From: Alphaproteobacteria bacterium
GTDB lineage: Bacteria > Pseudomonadota > Alphaproteobacteria > RF32 > CAG-239
Length of the DNA: 33,741 bases
Assembly: GCA_017621635.1 (NCBI GenBank)
Contig: JAGASU010000125.1
Span: 1-33,741 of the forward strand
Direction: 5' to 3'
Notes under the pieces: generated by a model
Databases searched by the model: none
What the model was told of the DNA's origin: nothing
The model's input: the letters and a program-made list of their open reading frames with translations, nothing else
Translations under genes and position numbers: made by a program
In this document: positions 4,468 through 33,684 of the stretch, piece by piece
Numbering within the stretch: the first letter of the stretch is position 1
How the letters are laid out: each line of letters opens with the position of its first letter

Positions 4468-5943
4468 ATGTCAGACTTATCCGAATATATCAAAAATTTT
4501 CAAAACGTCCGTATGCTGATCATCGGCGATGTGATGTTAGATGAGTTTATTTATGGCAAGGTGGAACGGATTTCACCCGAAGCGCCGGTTCCCGTTATCC
4601 GCTTAAAGAGTGAAAAAAAGATGTTGGGCGGAGCCGGTAATGTTGCCTTAAATGCCGCCGCACTCAAGGTCAATACCTCTTTTATCGGCCTAATCGGCAA
4701 TGATGAGGCCGGGTTGACGGTAAACAAATTATTTGAAGAAACGTCAATCAATAAACATCTCTTTAAGCTCAAAGATTATCCGACCATCATCAAAAAACGC
4801 TATATTGCCGGCAATGCCCAGCTTTTGCGCGCGGATAAAGAAGAAAAATTTCCCGATGTCGCCGGTATCATCAACCGTTTGGAGAAAATCTTTGTAAAAT
4901 TCCTAAAAAAAGCCGATGTCATCTTGTTATCCGATTATAACAAAGGCACGCTGACTAAAGAAGTCTGCCAAATGATCATCAAAAATGCCAATCTTGCCGG
5001 CATAAAAGTCATTGTCGACCCCAAGGGGCAGGATTACACCAAATACAACGGAGCCTTTTTAGTTAAGCCGAACTTAAAAGAATTTTCCGAAAGTACCGGT
5101 GTTAAGTTTAATACCGAAAGCCCTCTGTTTAAAGAAGAACTTAAAGAAGCCGCCAAAATTTTCTTTGCCAGCTATCAGGTGCAAAATCTTGTCGTTACGT
5201 TGTCTGAAAAAGGTATGGCCTGTTTTTCAAGGGAAAATGCCGATAATATGGTGCATGTCCCGACCATAGCCAAAGAAGTGTTTGATGTTTCGGGTGCCGG
5301 AGATACCTCTCTTGCGGTGTTAGGAGCAACGTTTGCTCTCAATGCGCCGCAAATTACCGCTCTAACCCTGGCAAACGCGGCCTCCGGTATCGCCGTCAGC
5401 AAATTAGGTACGGCAAGCGTCACGCCGGAAGAATTAACCGAGGCGCTGAACGAAGAAGAAAAAAACACCCCGTCCTCAGGTGTAATAACCTTAGAACAAG
5501 CGGTTAACATCAGAGAAAAACTGCGCAAAGTTGGAAAAACCGCAGGCTTTACCAACGGCTGTTTTGACTGTCTGCACTTAGGACATCTCCATTCGTTTAA
5601 GGAAGCCAAAAAAGAATGTGATGTCCTCTTTGTCGGCATAAATTCGGACACTTCGGTTAAACGCCTTAAAGGTCCCGCGCGTCCTCTGCAGGATGAACAG
5701 ACCAGAGCAGGGCTGTTAAGCGCGCTTAAATTGATAGATTATGTCATCATCTTTGACGAAGACACGGCGTTGCCGCTCATCGAGGCCTTAAAGCCCGATG
5801 TTATCGCCAAAGAAGGCTACGAACTCAAAGACTGGCCCGAAGCCCGGCTTGTCATCAAACAAGGCGGCCGCGCCGTCACGCTCAAACGTTTGGAGGGCTA
5901 CTCCACCACCTCAATGGTTGAAAGGATAAAAAATCATGATTAA
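4468..5943 (+). CDS. hldE: Bifunctional heptose-7-phosphate kinase / heptose-1-phosphate adenylyltransferase, copy 1
   Basis: HldE phosphorylates D-glycero-D-manno-heptose 7-phosphate at C1 and, after GmhB removes the 7-phosphate, adds AMP to give ADP-heptose. Residues 1 to about 320 form a ribokinase-like (PfkB) domain with MLGGAGNVA near 52-60 and DVSGAGDT at 273-280, Asp279 being the expected catalytic base. Residues about 345-485 form the nucleotidyltransferase domain with TNGCFD and HLGH at 370-373. The length of 491 aa is normal for the fused enzyme. The stop overlaps the gmhA start by 8 nt. A second, diverged copy lies at 17339-18823. Confidence 0.95.
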   Translation: MSDLSEYIKNFQNVRMLIIGDVMLDEFIYGKVERISPEAPVPVIRLKSEKKMLGGAGNVALNAAALKVNTSFIGLIGNDEAGLTVNKLFEETSINKHLFKLKDYPTIIKKRYIAGNAQLLRADKEEKFPDVAGIINRLEKIFVKFLKKADVILLSDYNKGTLTKEVCQMIIKNANLAGIKVIVDPKGQDYTKYNGAFLVKPNLKEFSESTGVKFNTESPLFKEELKEAAKIFFASYQVQNLVVTLSEKGMACFSRENADNMVHVPTIAKEVFDVSGAGDTSLAVLGATFALNAPQITALTLANAASGIAVSKLGTASVTPEELTEALNEEEKNTPSSGVITLEQAVNIREKLRKVGKTAGFTNGCFDCLHLGHLHSFKEAKKECDVLFVGINSDTSVKRLKGPARPLQDEQTRAGLLSALKLIDYVIIFDEDTALPLIEALKPDVIAKEGYELKDWPEARLVIKQGGRAVTLKRLEGYSTTSMVERIKNHD

Positions 5944-6493
5944 AGATGAAATTTTGCAAATTGCCGAAAATTTTAAAGCACTTTCTTCGCAAGACGCCGT
6001 CATTGAAGACACTGTCAATTTGTGCGTAAACGCTTTGGAAAACGGCAATAAAATTATCTTCTGCGGCAATGGCGGTTCGGCTTCGCAAGCCCAGCATTTA
6101 ACCGCCGAGCTTGTCGGTCGCTATAAAATGGAAAGAAAAGCCTTAGACGCCATCTCGTTAACCGTGGATACCTCCAATTTAACCGCCATCGGCAATGATT
6201 ACGGTTTTGAAAATATCTTTTCCCGCCAGCTCGAAGGAGTAGGAAAAATGGGAGATGTTCTGTTCGGGCTATCAACCTCCGGCAATTCCGAAAATGTTGT
6301 CCGCGCCTTTAAGCTGGCCAAAGAAATGGGAATTTTTACGATTGCCCTCATCGGTGCTAAAGAATGTAAAATGGAACAACTCGCAGATTTAACCATAAAA
6401 GTTCCGGCTCAAACCAGCAATAATATTCAGGAAATGCACTTAGCCGTCGGTCACATCATCTGTGGTGAAATAGAAAAACGAATTTTTGCATAA
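5936..6493 (+). CDS. gmhA: Sedoheptulose-7-phosphate isomerase, copy 1
   Basis: GmhA makes D-glycero-D-manno-heptose 7-phosphate from sedoheptulose 7-phosphate, the first committed step of ADP-heptose synthesis. This 185-aa SIS-domain protein shows FCGNGGSASQAQHLTAELVGR, TVDTSNLTAIGNDYG and GLSTSGNSENV, the phosphosugar-binding segments, and a C-terminal QEMHLAVGHIICGEIE with the active-site Glu/His region. An AAAGGA sequence lies before the ATG inside the end of hldE, and translational coupling is likely. The paralogue at 16761-17342 is clearly related but diverged. Confidence 0.95.
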   Translation: MIKDEILQIAENFKALSSQDAVIEDTVNLCVNALENGNKIIFCGNGGSASQAQHLTAELVGRYKMERKALDAISLTVDTSNLTAIGNDYGFENIFSRQLEGVGKMGDVLFGLSTSGNSENVVRAFKLAKEMGIFTIALIGAKECKMEQLADLTIKVPAQTSNNIQEMHLAVGHIICGEIEKRIFA

Positions 6494-16760: not shown

Positions 16761-17342
16761 TCATTTATTTAAATTTCCATAAAACTCCCGCTCAATCAAA
16801 TCGCACACCAAATGTCCGACCGTGATATGCATTTCCTGAATATGCGCAGAGGTAGTCGCCGGCACACATAATGAATAATCAGCCAGCTCTTTCATCAATC
16901 CGCCTTTGGCGCCGACAAGCGCAATAGTCGTTATGCCCGTCTTTTTCGCTTGTTCAAATGCCAACACCACATTTTTGGAGTTACCGGAGGTGGAAAGGCC
17001 GACCAACACATCGCCTTTTTGTCCCACACCTTCAAGCTGGCGGGAAAAGACAACATCATAGCCGTAATCGTTGCCGATAGCCGTTAAATTTGACGTATCA
17101 ACCGTTAAAGAAAGGGAGTTCATCGCCGGTCGGTTGATTTTATACCGTCCGACCAACTCTGCCGCCAAATGTTGCGCTTGCGCTGCTGAGCCGCCATTAC
17201 CGCACCAGATAACCTTATGCCCGTTTTTAATCGCCTCAATGCAGATATCTGCAATTCTGACCACTTGCTCGGACATCAGCTTAAGTTCCTTGAGCTGACC
17301 GGCTAATTCTTCAATTTGTGCATAAACATATTCTTTCATCAT
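16761..17342 (-). CDS. gmhA: Sedoheptulose-7-phosphate isomerase, copy 2
   Basis: A second SIS-domain phosphoheptose isomerase (193 aa) with WCGNGGSAAQAQHLAAELVGR, TVDTSNLTAIGNDYG, GLSTSGNSKNV and QEMHITVGHLVCDLIE. It has all the active-site segments of copy 1 but by eye only about 60 % identity to it, so it is not a recent duplicate. The ATG at 17342 overlaps the hldE stop (ATGA). An alternative ATG lies one codon later. It is the last gene of the leftward operon and presumably supplies heptose 7-phosphate to the HldE encoded just upstream. Confidence 0.95.
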   Translation of the reverse strand: MMKEYVYAQIEELAGQLKELKLMSEQVVRIADICIEAIKNGHKVIWCGNGGSAAQAQHLAAELVGRYKINRPAMNSLSLTVDTSNLTAIGNDYGYDVVFSRQLEGVGQKGDVLVGLSTSGNSKNVVLAFEQAKKTGITTIALVGAKGGLMKELADYSLCVPATTSAHIQEMHITVGHLVCDLIEREFYGNLNK

Positions 17343-18823
17343 AATCCTTTCATTTTGTTAACTAAACTTGAGGTCGAATATCCCTCAATCCGTTTGAGAA
17401 TAATCGCTTTACCGCCATAACTTTCAGCCAGTCTGCCTTCCGGCCAATGTGCCAAATCGTATCCCTCTTTGGCAACAACATCGGGTTTTAATGCCTCAAC
17501 AATAAAAAGCGGGCTGTCCTCATCAAACACAATCACATAATCAATAAATTCTAAAGACGCCAAAAGTAACGCCCGCGTTTTTTCATCTTGAACAGGACGG
17601 CTGTCGCCTTTATAACGCTTGACTGATTGATCGGAGTTAACCGCCACGATTAACACGTCGCAGAGCTTTTTCGCTTCAATAAAAGAACTCAAATGTCCCA
17701 AATGACAGCAATCAAAACACCCGTTAGTGAAACCGACGGTTTTGTGTTCGTCTTTTAATCGTTTAACAATCTCAACAGCTTGGGGCAGGGTGATGATTTT
17801 CTTTTTTTGCTTCCACCCGTCTAAAGGAGTTTCTTTTTGCGAAAGGGCGGCTTTAAGCTCATCGGCCTGCACTGTTGCCGTGCCGAGTTTGCCCACCACA
17901 ATCCCCGAGGCTAGGTTGGCAAGCTTCATCGCTTCTTTAATACTGACACCGCACCCGAGCGCTGCACCCAGAGTTGCCAACACAGTATCTCCCGCCCCCG
18001 AAACATCAAAAACTTCTTTGGCAATAGTCGGAATTTGCAGCAAATCTTCCGGATTTTCCCCCGGAATATACATCATTCCATACTCAGACAAGGTAACAAG
18101 CAAATTTTTAATCTGATATTTCTCAAACAAAAAACGCGCGCCTTCTTTGGCTTTATCATGAAAATCCGCACTTAAAGGCTGATAACGCCGTCCGCTGGCC
18201 TCGCTGAATTCTTTTAAATTCGGCTTGACTAAAGTTGCGCCCGCATATTTGGAATAATCCGCTCCTTTCGGATCAACCAAAACCGGCTTATGAAATTGTC
18301 CGCAAATCTCAATCACTAACTGAGCGGTAACCGGTGTAAACATTCCTTTGTTATAATCAGACAATAAAACAATATCCGCGTTTTTAACCGCCTGTGTCAC
18401 TATTTTCTGAAACTTAGGCAAAAGTTCGCTCACCACCGGAATAATCTCTTCCTGATCGGCTCTGAGCAAATGGTTGTTGCCGGCAATCAATCTCGTTTTA
18501 ACAATCGTCGGAAAGTCAGACAACTTTAAAAGGTGGTTGTGTACGCCAATCTTGGCAAGCAATCTTTGCACTCTGTCCCCATTCTCATCTTTGCCGACAA
18601 TACCGATAAAACAAGACTTGGCGCCAAGGGCAGCCAAATTAGCCGCAACATTTCCGGCTCCGCCCAGCATAACCTTTTCTCTCTCCCATTTAAACACCGG
18701 CACCGGCGCCTCTGGCGAAATCCGCTCCACTTTGCCATAAATAAACCGATCCAGCATAATATCGCCGACAATCAGCACCTTAACATTCTTAAAACTATCA
18801 ATCACCGAACTCAACAGCTCCAT
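17339..18823 (-). CDS. hldE: Bifunctional heptose-7-phosphate kinase / heptose-1-phosphate adenylyltransferase, copy 2
   Basis: This 494-aa HldE has the PfkB-type kinase domain (MLGGAGNVA near 52-60; DVSGAGDT around 275) and the C-terminal nucleotidyltransferase domain (TNGCFDCCHLGH around 370-380). By eye it is roughly 55 % identical to copy 1. The ATG at 18823 is preferred over GTG codons just upstream because AAAGGAGAGG lies 8 nt before it. It sits 13 nt after the AT-rich GT9-like gene and overlaps gmhA by 4 nt. No gmhB accompanies this copy, so it depends on the gmhB at 6509 or another phosphatase. Confidence 0.95.
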   Translation of the reverse strand: MELLSSVIDSFKNVKVLIVGDIMLDRFIYGKVERISPEAPVPVFKWEREKVMLGGAGNVAANLAALGAKSCFIGIVGKDENGDRVQRLLAKIGVHNHLLKLSDFPTIVKTRLIAGNNHLLRADQEEIIPVVSELLPKFQKIVTQAVKNADIVLLSDYNKGMFTPVTAQLVIEICGQFHKPVLVDPKGADYSKYAGATLVKPNLKEFSEASGRRYQPLSADFHDKAKEGARFLFEKYQIKNLLVTLSEYGMMYIPGENPEDLLQIPTIAKEVFDVSGAGDTVLATLGAALGCGVSIKEAMKLANLASGIVVGKLGTATVQADELKAALSQKETPLDGWKQKKKIITLPQAVEIVKRLKDEHKTVGFTNGCFDCCHLGHLSSFIEAKKLCDVLIVAVNSDQSVKRYKGDSRPVQDEKTRALLLASLEFIDYVIVFDEDSPLFIVEALKPDVVAKEGYDLAHWPEGRLAESYGGKAIILKRIEGYSTSSLVNKMKGL

Positions 18824-18836
18824 CACCACCTCTCCT

Positions 18837-20051
18837 TTAATTCTTTTGTGTAAGAGATAAAATATTTTTCATTTCACAGAAACATTTCCAAACAAATTCA
18901 GGTTTATAAGTAAATCGGTCAGCTTCATAATCAGCCTTCATTTCATTTTGGGGACAAAGGAATTGTCGATCTGATGGTATTTTACTGTAATTCTTATTTG
19001 CGATAATAAACATATTTGAAAAATAAACAGAATGCAGACAAACATCATAAAAATGATGCAGAACTAAATTTGGGATACCCATTGCCGCAGAAATGGATGC
19101 AAAGCAGCTAATAACAGTAATAAAAGATAAATCAACCCCTTTATTTTTTATTAATTGTAGCAACGATATTGTTTCTGTAATAAGCAAATCTTTTATATTT
19201 AGCTTCAGTAATTTATTATGGTGAAGTTTTGTTTTTTCAACAGTAATTACAAAGAATCCTGCATTTAATAATTTTGTTATAATTTCATCAACATATTCAT
19301 AAGTATAATGGCTAGATCGAGCCGTTAATTGAACAAAAACGACCTTATCCATATAATTTTTATATTTTTCAAATATATTTAATATCTTAACACTTGCCTG
19401 ATAATCATAAATAATTGGTGGCAGATTAATGTAGGGTACATCTAGTTTATATGTCTCACACAAGGTTTGGTTCCTAGATATCACAGAAGCATTATGTTGA
19501 TATATGACCGGTAAGAGCAGGACATCATCTTTTTTTATTTTATAACATTCTATATAATCATAATTTTTCCAATTATTTTTATTAGGTTTGCCATTATAAT
19601 AAAATACATTTTCAAAATTAGGATTTTTCTTTAGACAATCAGCAACTAAAGGGGAATTGTTTCCATCAAAATTTTTTGATACATATGCATCAAAAGACAA
19701 CTGGGGGTATTTAATTTTCAATGCTTCAAAAAATCGTGTTGTATAAAAATAATCTCCAATACCCATAAAAAATATAAAACCTATTTTTTTTATTTTCGGA
19801 TTTAACTTTAACGCCATATTTATATCAAATATAATATGTTGATTTACGTCTATATGAGGTATTCTAAAAGCATCAATATATTTCTTAAAAAAATAAGAAA
19901 CATCTAAACTATTATCTTCAATAACTAAACACCATGAAGTGTATTTTGTTTCTTTCGTTTTGATTTTTTTATATTTTGTTTTATAATGTTGCTTAGTTTT
20001 ACCAAAAGTAATATTCTTTAATATTTTATACTTTAATGATTTTAAACTCAT
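18837..20051 (-). CDS. Divergent GT9-like glycosyltransferase, 404 aa, AT-rich
   Basis: The segment IGFIFFMGIGDYFYTTRFFEALKIKYPQLSFDAYVS (about 90-125) matches the GT9 N-terminal pattern with its conserved GD and a following receptor-sugar helix. VVFVQLTARSSHYTYEYVDEIITKLL and TVISCFASISAAMGIPNLVLHH resemble the C-terminal domain, although the usual D-S/T-G-P-x-H is lost. A basic N-terminal extension of about 85 residues is present. The gene is far richer in A/T than hldE next to it, suggesting acquisition by transfer. It starts 1 nt after the preceding stop, with GGAGAG as binding site. Probable heptose or hexose transfer to a surface glycan; catalytic competence is uncertain. Confidence 0.65.
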   Translation of the reverse strand: MSLKSLKYKILKNITFGKTKQHYKTKYKKIKTKETKYTSWCLVIEDNSLDVSYFFKKYIDAFRIPHIDVNQHIIFDINMALKLNPKIKKIGFIFFMGIGDYFYTTRFFEALKIKYPQLSFDAYVSKNFDGNNSPLVADCLKKNPNFENVFYYNGKPNKNNWKNYDYIECYKIKKDDVLLLPVIYQHNASVISRNQTLCETYKLDVPYINLPPIIYDYQASVKILNIFEKYKNYMDKVVFVQLTARSSHYTYEYVDEIITKLLNAGFFVITVEKTKLHHNKLLKLNIKDLLITETISLLQLIKNKGVDLSFITVISCFASISAAMGIPNLVLHHFYDVCLHSVYFSNMFIIANKNYSKIPSDRQFLCPQNEMKADYEADRFTYKPEFVWKCFCEMKNILSLTQKN

Positions 20052-20052
20052 T

Positions 20053-21225
20053 TTATCTCTCCGATAATTGTTCTATTGCGTTTTCTACATCATCAACTGT
20101 TACAGCATTGATCGAGTAAAATGAACTTTGGTGCTTAGTTTTATAGTTTTGATGCACAAGCTTCATGAAGACATCATTTACTATGATTTTATATTTTTCA
20201 GATTCAGGATATTTAATAAATCTGGGATATGAACCGCCAGATGAAATACATATCGCTTTAGTTCGCAAAGCTACTGCTACATGAAAGAAACCGCTATCAT
20301 TTCCAATATATAAAGAAGCATTATTTATAAGATTAAATAAAGTTTTATAATCTAGTCCGGCTAAAATCTCAGCTTTCTCTCCTGATAATTGGTTTACAAT
20401 TTGCATATCACCAGCTTCTGATTTTGTTCCAATCAAATAAACTTTTAATTTTCTGTTATTTTGCAAATAAGAAACTATTTGTGCATAATTTTTTAAGTGC
20501 CATTTTCTAAAGTTATCTTGAGCACCAACACAAATTACAGCATATTTTTCACTGCTTTTTGTTTTAGCTAATTTTATAGTTGGAATATCTGTATCAATTT
20601 TTTGATCTAAAAGCTTTTCAAAGAAATTTCTATTTAGCTTATATTCAAAATCAACAAATTCAACAGGCAAAACCTGAGTGTATTGAAGAAAGTGCTGGTT
20701 ATCACTAAATTCTAAATCACCTGTTGTCCCTATAATTTCTTTAGCTTGTATTTTGGATATTAAAATATCTTGAATATAGCGAAAGACATTAACATTATGC
20801 GATGGAAACAATATAAGGTCATAAGTATTCTTTAATCCATTTGAAAATAATTTATTGACTTCTTTATATTGCTCATAGAAAGGTTTTTCAAAGAGCCTAT
20901 GTGGAATATATAAAACGTGATCAATAACATCTGCATCCAAATATTCTGGAATACTTTTAACAGTGGCAGAAGCAATTAATGTTAACTTTGCATTTTTATA
21001 TTTTTTAGAGGTTTTTATTGCTGAATAGAAGTTTCTCATCAAAATATAATCACCAATAGAATCAGCCGCAAAAATAAGAATACTCTTAGGTGTTCCATCA
21101 GGTGTATATTCAATTTTAGGATCAATATGATAATCTAAACAAACAAGTTTCTTTTTTCTAATTCTAATACCACAAAAATATAGCATTTCTTTATTATTTT
21201 TTAAAACTTTTTTAATGATTTTCAT
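20053..21225 (-). CDS. Glycosyltransferase family 9 (heptosyltransferase-like), 390 aa, AT-rich
   Basis: SILIFAADSIGDYILMRNFYSAIK (about 48-71) is the GT9 N-terminal loop. YAVICVGAQDNFRKWHLKNYAQIVSYL corresponds to the P/A-x-x-x-x-KxW segment, and IGNDSGFFHVAVALRTKAICIS is the nucleotide-sugar binding motif with the conserved His. A 45-residue N-terminal extension precedes the domain. Its start overlaps the preceding gene by 14 nt, with AAAGGA 9 nt upstream. Base composition is low in G+C like the next gene and unlike the flanking hldE and the fusion gene. A transferase using the ADP-heptose made by this operon is the simplest reading. Confidence 0.85.
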   Translation of the reverse strand: MKIIKKVLKNNKEMLYFCGIRIRKKKLVCLDYHIDPKIEYTPDGTPKSILIFAADSIGDYILMRNFYSAIKTSKKYKNAKLTLIASATVKSIPEYLDADVIDHVLYIPHRLFEKPFYEQYKEVNKLFSNGLKNTYDLILFPSHNVNVFRYIQDILISKIQAKEIIGTTGDLEFSDNQHFLQYTQVLPVEFVDFEYKLNRNFFEKLLDQKIDTDIPTIKLAKTKSSEKYAVICVGAQDNFRKWHLKNYAQIVSYLQNNRKLKVYLIGTKSEAGDMQIVNQLSGEKAEILAGLDYKTLFNLINNASLYIGNDSGFFHVAVALRTKAICISSGGSYPRFIKYPESEKYKIIVNDVFMKLVHQNYKTKHQSSFYSINAVTVDDVENAIEQLSER

Positions 21226-23197
21226 AAGAATATCCTTTCCTAATCGTTTTCAAAACATCCTCTGCCGTCACTTGATTAAGGCAGCAGGCGTTATCATTAG
21301 ACCTTAAACAAACTGTCCGCCATTCTCTTGCAACCCATTCGCAACCGGGGCAAAGGGTAGGTCGGATATTGATGTTTTCATCATAGCCGTAAAAAGCCTC
21401 ATTCGTCGGCCCGAACAGCACAACAGACGGTTTGGCACTCAAAAAATGCCTTAAATGAACCATACCGCACTCGCCGTCAATATGAAGCTGCGCTTCGTCA
21501 AGCAAAACCAACAATTCATTAAAATCAGTTTTCCCCGCAAGGCAAACGTCAACCCCTTTAATAATCTCCGAAGATAAATCGCCAACCTGAACCAGCAAAA
21601 CCTCGGGATATTCTTTTTTCAAAAACGTTACTAATTTTTCATACTGAGCTAAATTCCAAAGTCTGGTTGATTTATTGCGCTCCTTGCCATCAGCAATTCC
21701 CACGCCGCGATGAAGAGTGATAAACTTTTTAGTAAGCTGAAATTTTTTCAAAACCGCCAACTTGTCACAATGCAAATGAATCTTAAACCGGTCTTTAATT
21801 GAAAGCAGTCCCTCAATATCCGCTTCGCCAATTCGCCGCCTGTTTTGTAAAAGGCTGTAACGTTCTAACAAAAAATCTCCCTCGGTTCCGGCAGAAAACA
21901 TCAAGGGATGAGCCTTATTAAATAAAATAATCTTCTCTAAAAAAGCCTCTAACTCCGGCGCAAGCGCACACTTGGCCTTGTCAATAAATTCAACCTTAGG
22001 CGCCCGAACCAGCGAAATCACCACATCATATCCCGCCTCGCTCCCTTCAGCCGATACCCCTAAAATCTTATAATGCCCCGCCAGAAGCTCTGAAACTTCT
22101 TTGCGAAATATCTCGTCAACCGAAATCGAGACATCAATCTTATCAAAGCAATCCCGAAACTGCTCAATGTAATTAAGCGCGATTAGAATATCGCCCAATC
22201 CGCCGCCAAGCTTAAATAAAATATGGCAGGTACCATCATCAGCACCACGCAAACACCTTTTCTTCAAATGCCGCAAATACTCGTTCACAGCCTTAAAAAC
22301 AATCTTGCCCAAAACCTTAAGCGAATAATCATTTCCCTGTAAATATTGCTCAACTTTTCTGGTAATCCGCCACGAGCTGGAAAAATTGCGATAAAACCGA
22401 AATCTTTCAATAAACAATAAAAACTTCTTGTTCTTATAATCAAAATCAATCAGCTTTTTGTCGCAATAAACCGGATAAATAAACGGGCTGTCCGGATAAA
22501 CCCGTTTATATTTGCTAAAACTGAGCCAAAACCTCGGCCACACCGGCAAAGAAAAATGAAATTTCCTTTTATACCTTTCTTCCCAACTGGCCTCAAAGTG
22601 ATGCACGGCAAAACTCTCTTGATTATCCACACAAAAATAGCCGGTAGGATAAATAAAAGCCTTGTCAGTTATCTTAATAATTTCATTATCCGAATATACT
22701 TTACCGGCGCCGAACTGCCGCAAAACCGGCACCAGCCTTAAGGTGTTAACTAAAAGATCATACGTCCCGTCATTTTTCACAAAATGAATATCCTGATACA
22801 GCTTAAGCATTTCTTTAATAATAACATTTCCCTTAACTGCACCGATAACCGCCGTACCGATGCTTTCAAAAGCCCCGTGCTTTTCCGAGCCGATGAAAAA
22901 ATCATGCTTCAAAAACGCATCAAACGGCCGCCTTATCTCTACATCTGTGTCTAAATAAATTCCTCCTTCGCAAAACAAGGCATAGAGTCTGAACACGTCT
23001 GAAACAAACGCCCATTTTTTAGCCTTATAAGCCTCCATCACATAAGCGTTGTCAAAAAACAAATATAAATCTTTTTCCGACCACTCCCGAATTTCATAAT
23101 CAGGAAAAAACTTTTTCCAACTTTCCATACAAAAACGGATTTTCTCGCTTTTTTGCCCGCCGCCAAACCAGCAATAATGAATAATTTTAGGTATCAT
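21212..23197 (-). CDS. GT32-GT9 fusion glycosyltransferase, 661 aa
   Basis: Residues 1-250 form a GT32 (Gly_transf_sug, OCH1/capsule-type) domain: IPKIIHYCWFGGG at the start, WAFVSDVFRLYALFCEGGIYLDTDVE with the DXD motif at 83-85, and later AVHHFEASW. From about residue 322 a complete GT9 domain follows: LFKLGGGLGDILIALNYIEQF, FITLHRGVG with KSTRLWNLAQYEKLV, and HIDGECGMVHLRHFLSAKPSVVLFGPT. A Cys-rich C-terminal tail (CPGCEW, CLR, CCLNQ) may bind metal or form disulfides. One protein could thus add two successive sugars. It begins 21 nt after the recombinase-like gene and overlaps the next gene. Confidence 0.88.
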   Translation of the reverse strand: MIPKIIHYCWFGGGQKSEKIRFCMESWKKFFPDYEIREWSEKDLYLFFDNAYVMEAYKAKKWAFVSDVFRLYALFCEGGIYLDTDVEIRRPFDAFLKHDFFIGSEKHGAFESIGTAVIGAVKGNVIIKEMLKLYQDIHFVKNDGTYDLLVNTLRLVPVLRQFGAGKVYSDNEIIKITDKAFIYPTGYFCVDNQESFAVHHFEASWEERYKRKFHFSLPVWPRFWLSFSKYKRVYPDSPFIYPVYCDKKLIDFDYKNKKFLLFIERFRFYRNFSSSWRITRKVEQYLQGNDYSLKVLGKIVFKAVNEYLRHLKKRCLRGADDGTCHILFKLGGGLGDILIALNYIEQFRDCFDKIDVSISVDEIFRKEVSELLAGHYKILGVSAEGSEAGYDVVISLVRAPKVEFIDKAKCALAPELEAFLEKIILFNKAHPLMFSAGTEGDFLLERYSLLQNRRRIGEADIEGLLSIKDRFKIHLHCDKLAVLKKFQLTKKFITLHRGVGIADGKERNKSTRLWNLAQYEKLVTFLKKEYPEVLLVQVGDLSSEIIKGVDVCLAGKTDFNELLVLLDEAQLHIDGECGMVHLRHFLSAKPSVVLFGPTNEAFYGYDENINIRPTLCPGCEWVAREWRTVCLRSNDNACCLNQVTAEDVLKTIRKGYSYENH

Positions 23198-23218: not shown

Positions 23219-23815
23219 CTAAGCTTCATTTTTCTCCCCTTTTTTTCTAAATTCGGGGTGTTCTCTGTAAAAACCATAAAGCGTCGGTGTGCTGACGTTA
23301 AGCGCTTTGGCAATCATCGCATTGGTTGCGCCTTGCTGCTTTAGCAAAAGAATTTGTTCTTCTTTATCATCGAGAAGATGCGTTTTATTGCGCGATCTGC
23401 GGCCTAAAATCACCCCGTCGGCTTTTCGTTCTGCAAGCGCTTTCTTTGTCACAACCGAAACTAAACTGTTTCTGATATCAATAGCTAAATGCAGTCCTTT
23501 AAGAAGTGTTTTACTGCTCCGATTAGGGGGGAAGATAAAATCTTCAGCCGCCAGAATAACCGTAATATTCTTGCTCAAAGCAAGTTCCAAGGTCTTAACC
23601 ACTAAAGGAAGACTGGCCCCAAGGCAAACCACATTAGCCGCAATCACAACACAATCTTTACGGCAAATCTCTTGTAAAAACGCGGCGAAATCATTGTTTT
23701 TGACCACCAAATCAATAGAATACTCAGAATGATCTGCCATAAAACCGGAGACAATCTCGGCCTGCTTCTCTTGATCAACGTTCTTTGGATTCGTATCTAA
23801 ATAATGTAAAAACAT
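23219..23815 (-). CDS. Catalytically dead serine-recombinase-like DNA-binding protein, 198 aa
   Basis: The whole length aligns by eye with resolvases/invertases (gamma-delta, Hin). HYLDTNPKNVDQEKQ stands where YARVSTxxQ should be. VVCLGAS (63-68) replaces DRLGRD. KKALAERKADGVILGRRSRNK (to residue 144) matches the AxxxG-xxxGR arm, and a C-terminal helix-turn-helix follows (about 162-183, TNAMIAKALNVSTPTLYGFY). The nucleophilic Ser and its Arg/Asp partners are all replaced, so recombination is not expected while DNA binding is. The start is set at the ATG 23815, where homology begins; a TTG at 23851 would add 12 residues. It is the first gene of the glycan operon and probably its regulator. Confidence 0.75.
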   Translation of the reverse strand: MFLHYLDTNPKNVDQEKQAEIVSGFMADHSEYSIDLVVKNNDFAAFLQEICRKDCVVIAANVVCLGASLPLVVKTLELALSKNITVILAAEDFIFPPNRSSKTLLKGLHLAIDIRNSLVSVVTKKALAERKADGVILGRRSRNKTHLLDDKEEQILLLKQQGATNAMIAKALNVSTPTLYGFYREHPEFRKKGEKNEA

Positions 23816-23860
23816 ATCTTCACTTTCCGGCTGAATAACTGATTTTACCAATATTAATTA

Positions 23861-23982
23861 TTTAATGGACGATAGAATCTTATAGCCTAATAGTCAAGCG
23901 CTATTTTCGGAAATCATTGAAAGTTTTAAAAAAATATTAAAAAACAAAGTTTTTTTAATGTGCGTATCTATCGTCCCTTAAA
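23861..23982. repeat. Inverted repeat bracketing the glycan-operon promoter
   Basis: The left arm 23861-23876 reads TTTAATGGACGATAGA. The right arm 23967-23982, read on the other strand, is TTTAAGGGACGATAGA. They agree at 15 of 16 positions and are 90 bp apart. The left arm overlaps the -10 box of the leftward promoter. Because transcription should start near 23862, the right arm is outside the transcript, so this is a DNA-level element rather than an RNA hairpin. Confidence 0.8.
23869..23897 (-). promoter_or_regulatory. Predicted promoter of the six-gene glycan operon
   Basis: On the minus strand TTGACT (23897-23892) is followed after exactly 17 nt by TATCGT (23874-23869). The start would fall near 23862, about 46 nt before the ATG at 23815. 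A weaker TATAAG at 23884-23879 has no -35 at suitable distance. The -10 lies inside an arm of the inverted repeat. Confidence 0.6.
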
Positions 23983-24184
23983 CAAACTCTCCCCAAAAAC
24001 ATACATTTTTCACGTCAAAACAATAGACTAAGAAGCGCACAGCTTGATACAAAATAAAAAAATCCCGCTAAAAAACAAGCCTCGGAATTTACTTAAATTT
24101 TTCTGCTTTCCTGTTAATAACCGGTTGCGAAATAAAAAAAATCAATAATTAAAAGTTGTAAAAACAATCACGAAACCCTAAAAC

Positions 24185-24221: not shown

Positions 24222-24349
24222 TGGTTGCGGGGGAAGGATTTGACGTCGTTTCACTCCGCCGCACGGGCGCTCATCGGCTTTCAGCCGACCGGCGTTCTTC
24301 CGTCCGCCTTTCGCTGACAGTCGAACCAACTTCTTCGTTGGTTCAAATC
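24222..24349 (-). pseudogene. Broken copy of the initiator-tRNA 3' end with a GC-rich insertion
   Basis: Positions 24222-24243 are identical over 22 nt to 24404-24425, the CCA end, acceptor strand and T-arm of the intact tRNA. The tRNA match then stops in the T-loop and resumes with ACCAAC at 24325. The 81 nt between (24244-24324) are G+C-rich and contain a 6-bp hairpin TCGGCT-TTC-AGCCGA (24274-24288). Just after it, GAACCAAC-TTCTTC-GTTGGTTC (24323-24344) forms an inverted repeat built from the T-arm sequence. No 5' half of a tRNA is present. It could be an attachment-site scar or a palindromic-element insertion. Confidence 0.65.
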
Positions 24350-24403: not shown

Positions 24404-24480
<77 letters not shown>

Positions 24481-32338: not shown

Positions 32339-33574
32339 ATGCGCGATTTAACCGAAGTTTTGCTAAACTATGACATCAACGGCACCGTTAAAACCATCAC
32401 CCAAGGTCCGCTGTTGCAAATAATCGAGTTTGAACCCAAAGCCGGTACAAAATTAAAAAACATACTGGCAGTGGAAGAGGATATTCGCCGTGAACTTGGC
32501 GTTTCCTCGCTCAGAATTGAGCCTTCACACACCAACAACAGCATTTTATTTCAAATTCCTTTAGACGAGTTTGACACTATTGATTTTAAAACACTTCTGG
32601 AGTCGCCCCAATTTCTTACCGCCAAAGCAAAACAAACCTTGCCGCTCATCTTAGGCGCGGATATAACAGGAACTCCCGTTATTGCGGATTTATCAAAAAT
32701 GCCGCACCTCTTAATCGGCGGCACCACCGGCTCCGGCAAATCCGTCGGTTTGAATACGTTTATCTTATCGTTAATGGCGGCTCTTCCGCCTCAAGAGCTC
32801 AAATTTGTCTTGATAGATCCCAAAAAGATAGAATTCAGTATCTATAATAACCAAAAATATCTCTTAACACCCGTCATTACCGAAACCACGGAAGCTATCG
32901 CTATTCTCAAATATTTAACCGAAGAAATGGACCGCCGTTATGAGCTTTTGAGCGAAAAGATGAGCAAAAATCTTGCCGAATATAACGCCTCAGGGCAGGG
33001 GAAGCTTCCTTATATTGTCTGCGTCATAGATGAGTTTGCCGACCTGATGGCGCTTGATAAAAATGTGGAAAAAGACGTTATGCGTTTAGCACAAAAAGCC
33101 CGCGCCGCCGGCATACACTTAATCCTTGCTACACAGCGCCCTTCGGTTGATGTTGTCACCGGCGTCCTAAAAGCCAATTTTCCGACCAGACTTTCCTATA
33201 AAGTCGCAAGTTCGGCAGATTCGCGCACGATACTAGACACAACCGGCGCTCAAAACCTGCTCGGTCGCGGCGATTCGCTGTTCTTGGCGGCAAACGGCAG
33301 CTTAATCCGTCTGCACGGCGCTTATGTCACAGATTCGGAAATAGCAGCTATGCTCAAACCTTATCGTGCAGAAATTCGCCCGTTGAAGTTATCTGAAAAA
33401 ACAGAAATACAAACCAAAACCACTCCCGAAAAACCCAAACAACCGTTTTATAAAAGAATCTTTCACTTTTGGGGAAATCTGCGCCAAAAGGACAGGGATA
33501 TGATTATCAAAGTCGCTAAATACGCCTTTGCTTATCTGGCCGGTTTCTTTAGCAACAGGAAAAATAAAAAATAG
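32339..33574 (+). CDS. Short FtsK/SpoIIIE-type DNA translocase, 411 aa
   Basis: The protein begins directly in the FtsK alpha domain (LLNYDINGTVKTITQGPLLQIIEFEP). The RecA-like motor follows: Walker A GGTTGSGKSVGLN near 130-142, Walker B YIVCVIDEFADLM, and ATQRPSVDVVTGVLKANFPTR with LDTTGAQNLLGRGDSLFL. The four-helix membrane anchor and linker of normal FtsK (700-900 aa) are absent. After YVTDSEIAAML the DNA-reading gamma winged-helix is replaced by a basic tail with a short hydrophobic stretch (IIKVAKYAFAYLAGFF). AAGGAAG precedes the ATG. It is probably a paralogue rather than the essential divisome FtsK. Confidence 0.88.
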   Translation: MRDLTEVLLNYDINGTVKTITQGPLLQIIEFEPKAGTKLKNILAVEEDIRRELGVSSLRIEPSHTNNSILFQIPLDEFDTIDFKTLLESPQFLTAKAKQTLPLILGADITGTPVIADLSKMPHLLIGGTTGSGKSVGLNTFILSLMAALPPQELKFVLIDPKKIEFSIYNNQKYLLTPVITETTEAIAILKYLTEEMDRRYELLSEKMSKNLAEYNASGQGKLPYIVCVIDEFADLMALDKNVEKDVMRLAQKARAAGIHLILATQRPSVDVVTGVLKANFPTRLSYKVASSADSRTILDTTGAQNLLGRGDSLFLAANGSLIRLHGAYVTDSEIAAMLKPYRAEIRPLKLSEKTEIQTKTTPEKPKQPFYKRIFHFWGNLRQKDRDMIIKVAKYAFAYLAGFFSNRKNKK

Positions 33575-33601
33575 CGCCAAAACAAACAATTGATAACATA
33601 T

Positions 33602-33663
33602 TACTTTCCGAAAGTAGGTTGTCGGGCTTCATAGGGCCAGTCCCTCCGCCACTCTTGATAAGC
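33602..33663 (-). ncRNA. 5' half of a SAM-I (S-box) riboswitch
   Basis: Read on the minus strand, CTTATCAAGAG (33662-33652) leads into GGCGGAGGGACTGGCCC, ATGAAGCCCGACAACC and then a 6-bp hairpin TACTTTCGGAAAGTA. The first three parts match the highly conserved P1/P2 kink-turn half of the S-box almost base for base. The 3' core (GGTGCTAATTCC and the closing GATAAG strand) is not found at the expected place. A promoter lies just upstream. No methionine-related gene follows: downstream is the 3' end of the ftsK-like gene on the other strand. Confidence 0.65.
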
Positions 33664-33684
33664 GTATTAAATTTTACAAGAGAT

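Follow-up and report, generated by a model that had tools for sequence, protein, structure and literature searches.

Gene and feature organization of the locus

The window, by which we mean the whole stretch of 33,741 nucleotides that was analyzed, carries on its minus strand an operon whose first gene encodes a relative of the serine invertases. The five genes that follow on the same strand encode, in order, a glycosyltransferase, a GT9 protein, a 404-residue protein, HldE, and GmhA (Table 1). The heptose pair hldE and gmhA is present twice in the window, once in this operon (16761–18829) and once in a plus-strand locus with further glycan genes (4468–6493). An inverted repeat lies between the first gene and its upstream terminator; its extended arms are 19 nt long and match at 89%.

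Table 1 Features of the putatively switched operon and its upstream region, in window coordinates
Feature	Position	Strand	Remarks
Mpi-type serine invertase paralog, predicted to be catalytically dead; operon gene 1	23219–23815	−	Open frame of 198 aa from ATG at 23815 to the stop at 23219; possible alternative start codon TTG at 23851
Glycosyltransferase (Gly_transf_sug/Caps_synth plus GT9 domain)	21212–23197	−	
GT9 heptosyltransferase-like protein	20053–21225	−	
404-aa operon protein	18837–20051	−	No Pfam match; glycosyltransferase-like by context only
HldE-type bifunctional protein (PfkB plus cytidylyltransferase)	17339–18829	−	Second copy in the window
GmhA-type SIS-domain isomerase	16761–17342	−	Second copy in the window
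Arm of the inverted repeat nearer to gene 1, TTTAATGGACGATAGA	23861–23876		Extended match 23858–23876
Arm of the inverted repeat farther from gene 1, TCTATCGTCCCTTAAA	23967–23982		Extended match 23967–23985
Segment of 90 bp enclosed by the arms, predicted to be invertible	23877–23966		Homologous-type segment inverted in L045 relative to L048
Promoter-like element toward gene 1 (putative ON)	23879–23897	−	TTGACT 23897–23892, TATAAG 23884–23879; alternative −10 TATCGT 23874–23869

Two features elsewhere in the window were also recorded. The 3′ end of a tRNA-Met gene (24404–24480, minus strand) is copied at 24222–24243, with a G+C-rich stretch of ~100 nt between the two. In related genomes, comparable stretches are found behind the genes for tRNA-Pro, Ser, Ala, and Lys, and several include a copy of the 3′ end of the tRNA in question; the arrangement resembles a tRNA fragment whose T-loop holds a small element. 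A SAM riboswitch lies at 33529–33664 on the minus strand.

A resolvase-type protein without the catalytic residues

The earlier note had described the product of the first gene as a resolvase-like protein that keeps its DNA-binding parts but has lost its active site, and both the alignment and the predicted structure bear this out. An AlphaFold2 model, built from an alignment of 12 relatives, has a pLDDT of 83 and shows a long E-helix followed by a helix-turn-helix (HTH). The structural comparison proposed in that note was carried out: γδ and Tn3 resolvases are the best matches of the predicted fold in the PDB by Foldseek (E values of 2e-7 to 5e-7; 2e-7 for 2gm4), and they also rank first by VIA (Z of 12.0 for 1gdt). 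For the window protein, Pfam returns nothing beyond weak HTH matches, but PF00239 (Resolvase) is recognized in half of the 12 members of that alignment. In NCBIfam, the window protein matches best the model for the Mpi master DNA invertase (NF009949), at 69.2 bits compared with a cutoff of 272; other members of the dead group reach 48–78 bits, also below this curated cutoff.

In an alignment with γδ resolvase and Hin, the window protein retains Tyr6, whereas Arg8, Ser10, Asp67, Arg68, Arg71, Arg119, and Arg125 are replaced by Asp, Asn, Val, Cys, Ala, Asn, and Val, respectively, and about five residues of the 36–50 region are deleted. The GR(R) minor-groove segment and the HTH are still present. 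The active-site serine, arginine, and aspartate residues are required for serine recombinase catalysis; judged by these residues, the protein should be unable to carry out serine recombinase chemistry. With respect to NF009949, it thus has the resolvase-type fold and C-terminal HTH but neither the required bit score nor the catalytic Ser10, Arg8, Arg68, and Arg71. The γδ and Tn3 resolvases (1gdt and 5cy1), which share its overall fold, E-helix, and HTH but differ in the catalytic Ser and Arg residues and the deleted region, also repress transcription from their own sites.

A matching repeat and an intact invertase in the same genome

Inverted repeats flank the promoter region of the operon, a feature that the earlier note had not recorded. 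The pattern GGACGATA-N70..130-TATCGTCC occurs in this genome at exactly two places, both directly upstream of a dead invertase gene, and at none in 37 other genomes; a control pattern gave no match in this genome. A looser 7-mer core adds a single third place (C1:32275–32367). GGACGATAGA itself is present at three more sites of this genome, none of which has a matching inverted copy nearby. The second full-core place, C47:10098–10232, is a perfect 25-nt repeat. It stands between an intact invertase (C47:9456–10052) and a second dead paralog (C47:10286–10876), which heads an operon whose first following gene encodes a nucleotidyltransferase. The intact invertase retains all catalytic residues, scores 306 bits with NF009949 and so exceeds the cutoff, and is the sole invertase in the genome to adjoin a repeat that shares the core of the window repeat. 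Further intact Mpi-type invertases, with no dead neighbor, are found on contigs C30, C79, and C123; no strong inverted repeat was detected within 2.5 kb of these three.

We propose that the repeat-bounded promoter segment of ~90 bp would be flipped in trans by an intact serine invertase of the Mpi family, the candidate enzyme being G000:C47:9456–10052 of this genome. The TTGACT element points toward the dead gene in the window and away from it at C47 and in G017, which suggests that the promoter faces the operon (ON) in this assembly. Its −35 and −10 boxes are separated by a 7-bp spacer in the window compared with 17–18 bp in related segments, so the strength of the window promoter is uncertain; it may be weak or may use the alternative TATCGT. 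The window segment is known in one orientation only, from a single MAG contig, and no strain-level copy of the locus in the opposite orientation was found in the genome contigs or viral contigs searched. By the same element, this genome has one ON and one OFF locus; elsewhere, promoter scores are too uncertain to judge mutual exclusion between loci.

Inactive homologs across the bacterial family

An alignment of the dead proteins was searched against 152 genomes of the same bacterial family, and many matches, intact and dead together, were obtained in 15 of the 16 genera searched. The neighborhoods of ~60 matches were taken and 103 family ORFs sorted. The complete Y-R-S-R-R-R-R set is present in 47 of them; another 47 lack the full set, and these are always shorter in the 36–50 region. 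The dead genes examined span nine genera (g1, g2, g4, g5, g22, g23, g24, g28, and g30). In a maximum likelihood tree they fall on one side of a branch with an SH-aLRT of 94, several rows being long branches. The catalytic loss claimed in the earlier note extends to the ~47 dead homologs, which form one clade without the Ser and key Arg residues in any member.

Between pairs of dead genes, dN/dS ranges from 0.07 to 0.19 overall (ω ≈ 0.1), which indicates purifying selection on these sequences, and column conservation is highest in the DNA-binding part of the protein. These data bear directly on the reading that the dead gene is a decaying, functionless duplicate carried along with the switch. 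Some members are indeed truncated or interrupted by stops. The frame is open in most of the ~47, however, and a single old clade under such selection, with its DNA-binding residues the most conserved, makes the pseudogene reading very improbable.

Dead homologs in other orders and classes were sought in 240 genomes sampled from the class and 299 sampled from the phylum; at E ≤ 1e-42 none turned up outside the genome of the window. A phage or plasmid origin of the dead gene was considered and rejected, the matches being generic invertases only. Just upstream of the dead gene of G017, a fragment of an invertase-like C terminus (L036 9952–10137) suggests a decayed neighboring copy.

Invertible segments upstream of the dead genes

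Inverted repeats are strongly enriched upstream of the dead genes. At a score of 10, they are found for 24 of 41 dead genes compared with 7 of 178 other genes of the same loci, and at a score of 13, for 18 of 41 compared with 1 of 178 (p = 6e-12). The arms lie roughly 160–215 and 15–80 bases before the start codon. A few dead genes have no clear repeat. Upstream sequence of at least 300 bases was available for 40 dead genes; an intact invertase lies 50–260 bp upstream of 19 of these and a truncated one upstream of 1 more. With the truncated one included, 9 of these invertases share the strand of the dead gene and 11 are divergent. The inner segments of two relatives, L045 and L048, are 95.4% identical when one is flipped and 33.6% identical when it is not, with a gene-side flank at 94%. 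Because these segments stand in opposite orientation between conserved flanks, segments of this kind do invert. The pairs L110/L115, L110/L117, and L117/L118 also align in opposite orientation, if less clearly.

The earlier note had read the protein as a domesticated recombinase that regulates its operon. The loss of catalysis and the link to glycan genes stand, but the protein is not simply such a regulator: the repeats that bound the operon promoter region, the intact Mpi-family invertases near many dead genes (also absent from that note), and the homologous segments in both orientations place it within an inversion switch and leave the original reading incomplete.

Such a setting raises the possibility that the dead protein is a brake. 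Made only in the ON state, it would compete for the crossover sites or poison mixed tetramers and so lock the switch ON, a dominant-negative feedback. It shares the fold and family of the invertase, heads the switched operon, and adjoins an intact invertase in 19 loci, and at divergent loci in the OFF state the promoter-like element faces the active gene. The dead proteins of L108 and L110, however, have identical recognition helices, yet the crossover cores at their loci differ (AACGAACG and TATATCACCGTTTAT) and the active partners of the two switches belong to different clades. In these examples the crossover core varies with the active partner rather than with the recognition helix of the dead protein, which argues against dead proteins simply reading repeats such as the one at 23861–23982. 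Since competition for sites would require the dead protein to read them, this favors a regulator that acts at another site. About half of the dead genes, moreover, have no adjacent active invertase. We regard the brake as a possibility, if a fairly unlikely one.

Glycan genes behind the dead genes

The association of dead homologs with glycan operons, which the earlier note had proposed to check, holds across genomes. A glycan gene is the first downstream gene in most of the 41 loci. By Pfam, these first genes encode GT2 (11), nucleotidyltransferase (5), DegT (3), epimerase (3), GT8 (3), and RgpF (3) proteins, in addition to the glycosyltransferase of the window itself; the remaining proteins, read by eye and not by profile search, add UDP-sugar enzymes and glycosyltransferases. 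Seven loci depart from this pattern: the first gene encodes a tandem-HTH protein in three, a large HAD-like protein in two, a short protein of no known type in one, and a Cas1-like protein in one, all assigned by eye except the HTH proteins. The tandem-HTH proteins, ~332 residues long and matching dozens of HTH families, stand directly behind the dead invertase in L108 (4381–5376), L109 (4309–5316), and L112 (639–1634), all of one genus.

The place of the dead gene, first in its operon and often overlapping the next gene or ending within a few bases of it, would suit a protein that promotes expression of the operon, as an activator or antiterminator working near the promoter. In Bacteroides capsule loci, UpxY genes are likewise positioned downstream of Mpi-type switches (PMC12632263). 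The dead protein, however, has no NusG-like fold, and a search of five dead-gene relatives with the same HTH for a shared upstream or leader motif gave nothing above shuffles and no DNA site for the protein. We therefore consider a positive factor of this kind unlikely.

Proposed role and relation to known systems

We think it likely that the window carries a phase-variable glycan operon whose first gene encodes a catalytically dead invertase, probably a DNA-binding regulator. The architecture is well supported. As for the exact role, since the resolvase fold and the DNA-binding parts have been kept under selection, we infer that a DNA-binding regulator is the most likely function. With the promoter ON, the first product would be the dead paralog and the other products would build a heptose-containing surface glycan, such that the putative regulator would be made in ON cells only. 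Its site of action, reached in trans, would lie elsewhere than at the crossover core and might be a second glycan locus. A broader reading, slightly less likely than not, is that the dead-invertase clade, which the searches located in one alphaproteobacterial family only, provides ON-state regulators of invertase-switched surface glycan operons: the fold of the switch enzyme would have been copied, stripped of its catalytic function, and placed at the head of the operon that the enzyme switches, to coordinate which glycan is displayed.

Several known systems share parts of this design. In Salmonella Hin-fljBA, an invertible promoter drives an operon that includes the DNA-binding regulator FljA. 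The locus described here likewise joins an invertible promoter, as predicted, to a candidate DNA-binding regulator in the switched operon; FljA, however, is no relative of a recombinase, whereas the candidate here descends from the family of the switch enzyme itself. In Bacteroides fragilis, a single Mpi invertase serves more than one invertible promoter of capsule operons (Coyne 2003, as cited in PMC12632263). Common to both are a serine invertase of the same family, represented here by the C47 enzyme, repeats around surface polysaccharide promoters, and, as proposed here, one invertase for more than one promoter. The present system differs in its alphaproteobacterial host, in repeat cores that vary between loci, and in a first gene that is an invertase relative without catalytic residues (65–70 bits for the window and G017 members compared with the cutoff of 272). 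The regulators UpxY and UpxZ are also encoded first in Bacteroides capsule loci, behind Mpi-flipped promoters (PMC12632263), as the dead gene is first in its operon. No relation in sequence or fold to the NusG-like UpxY or to UpxZ was found, Pfam and NCBIfam returning only HTH and Mpi matches and the fold being that of a resolvase.

The open-access literature on inactive invertases and serine recombinases and on alphaproteobacterial phase variation yielded no report of such a protein, and the layout with a dead invertase first, repeated across the bacterial family, is apparently undescribed. A design like that of Mpi and Upx, an invertible promoter with a regulator as first gene, would have had an independent origin here, in alphaproteobacteria so far represented by uncultured MAGs, and its regulator would come from the same family as the invertase. 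Some 40 such natural switches, in which active and dead proteins can be compared as matched sets, allow direct tests of how a recombinase evolves into a regulator and how phase-variable glycan loci are coordinated.
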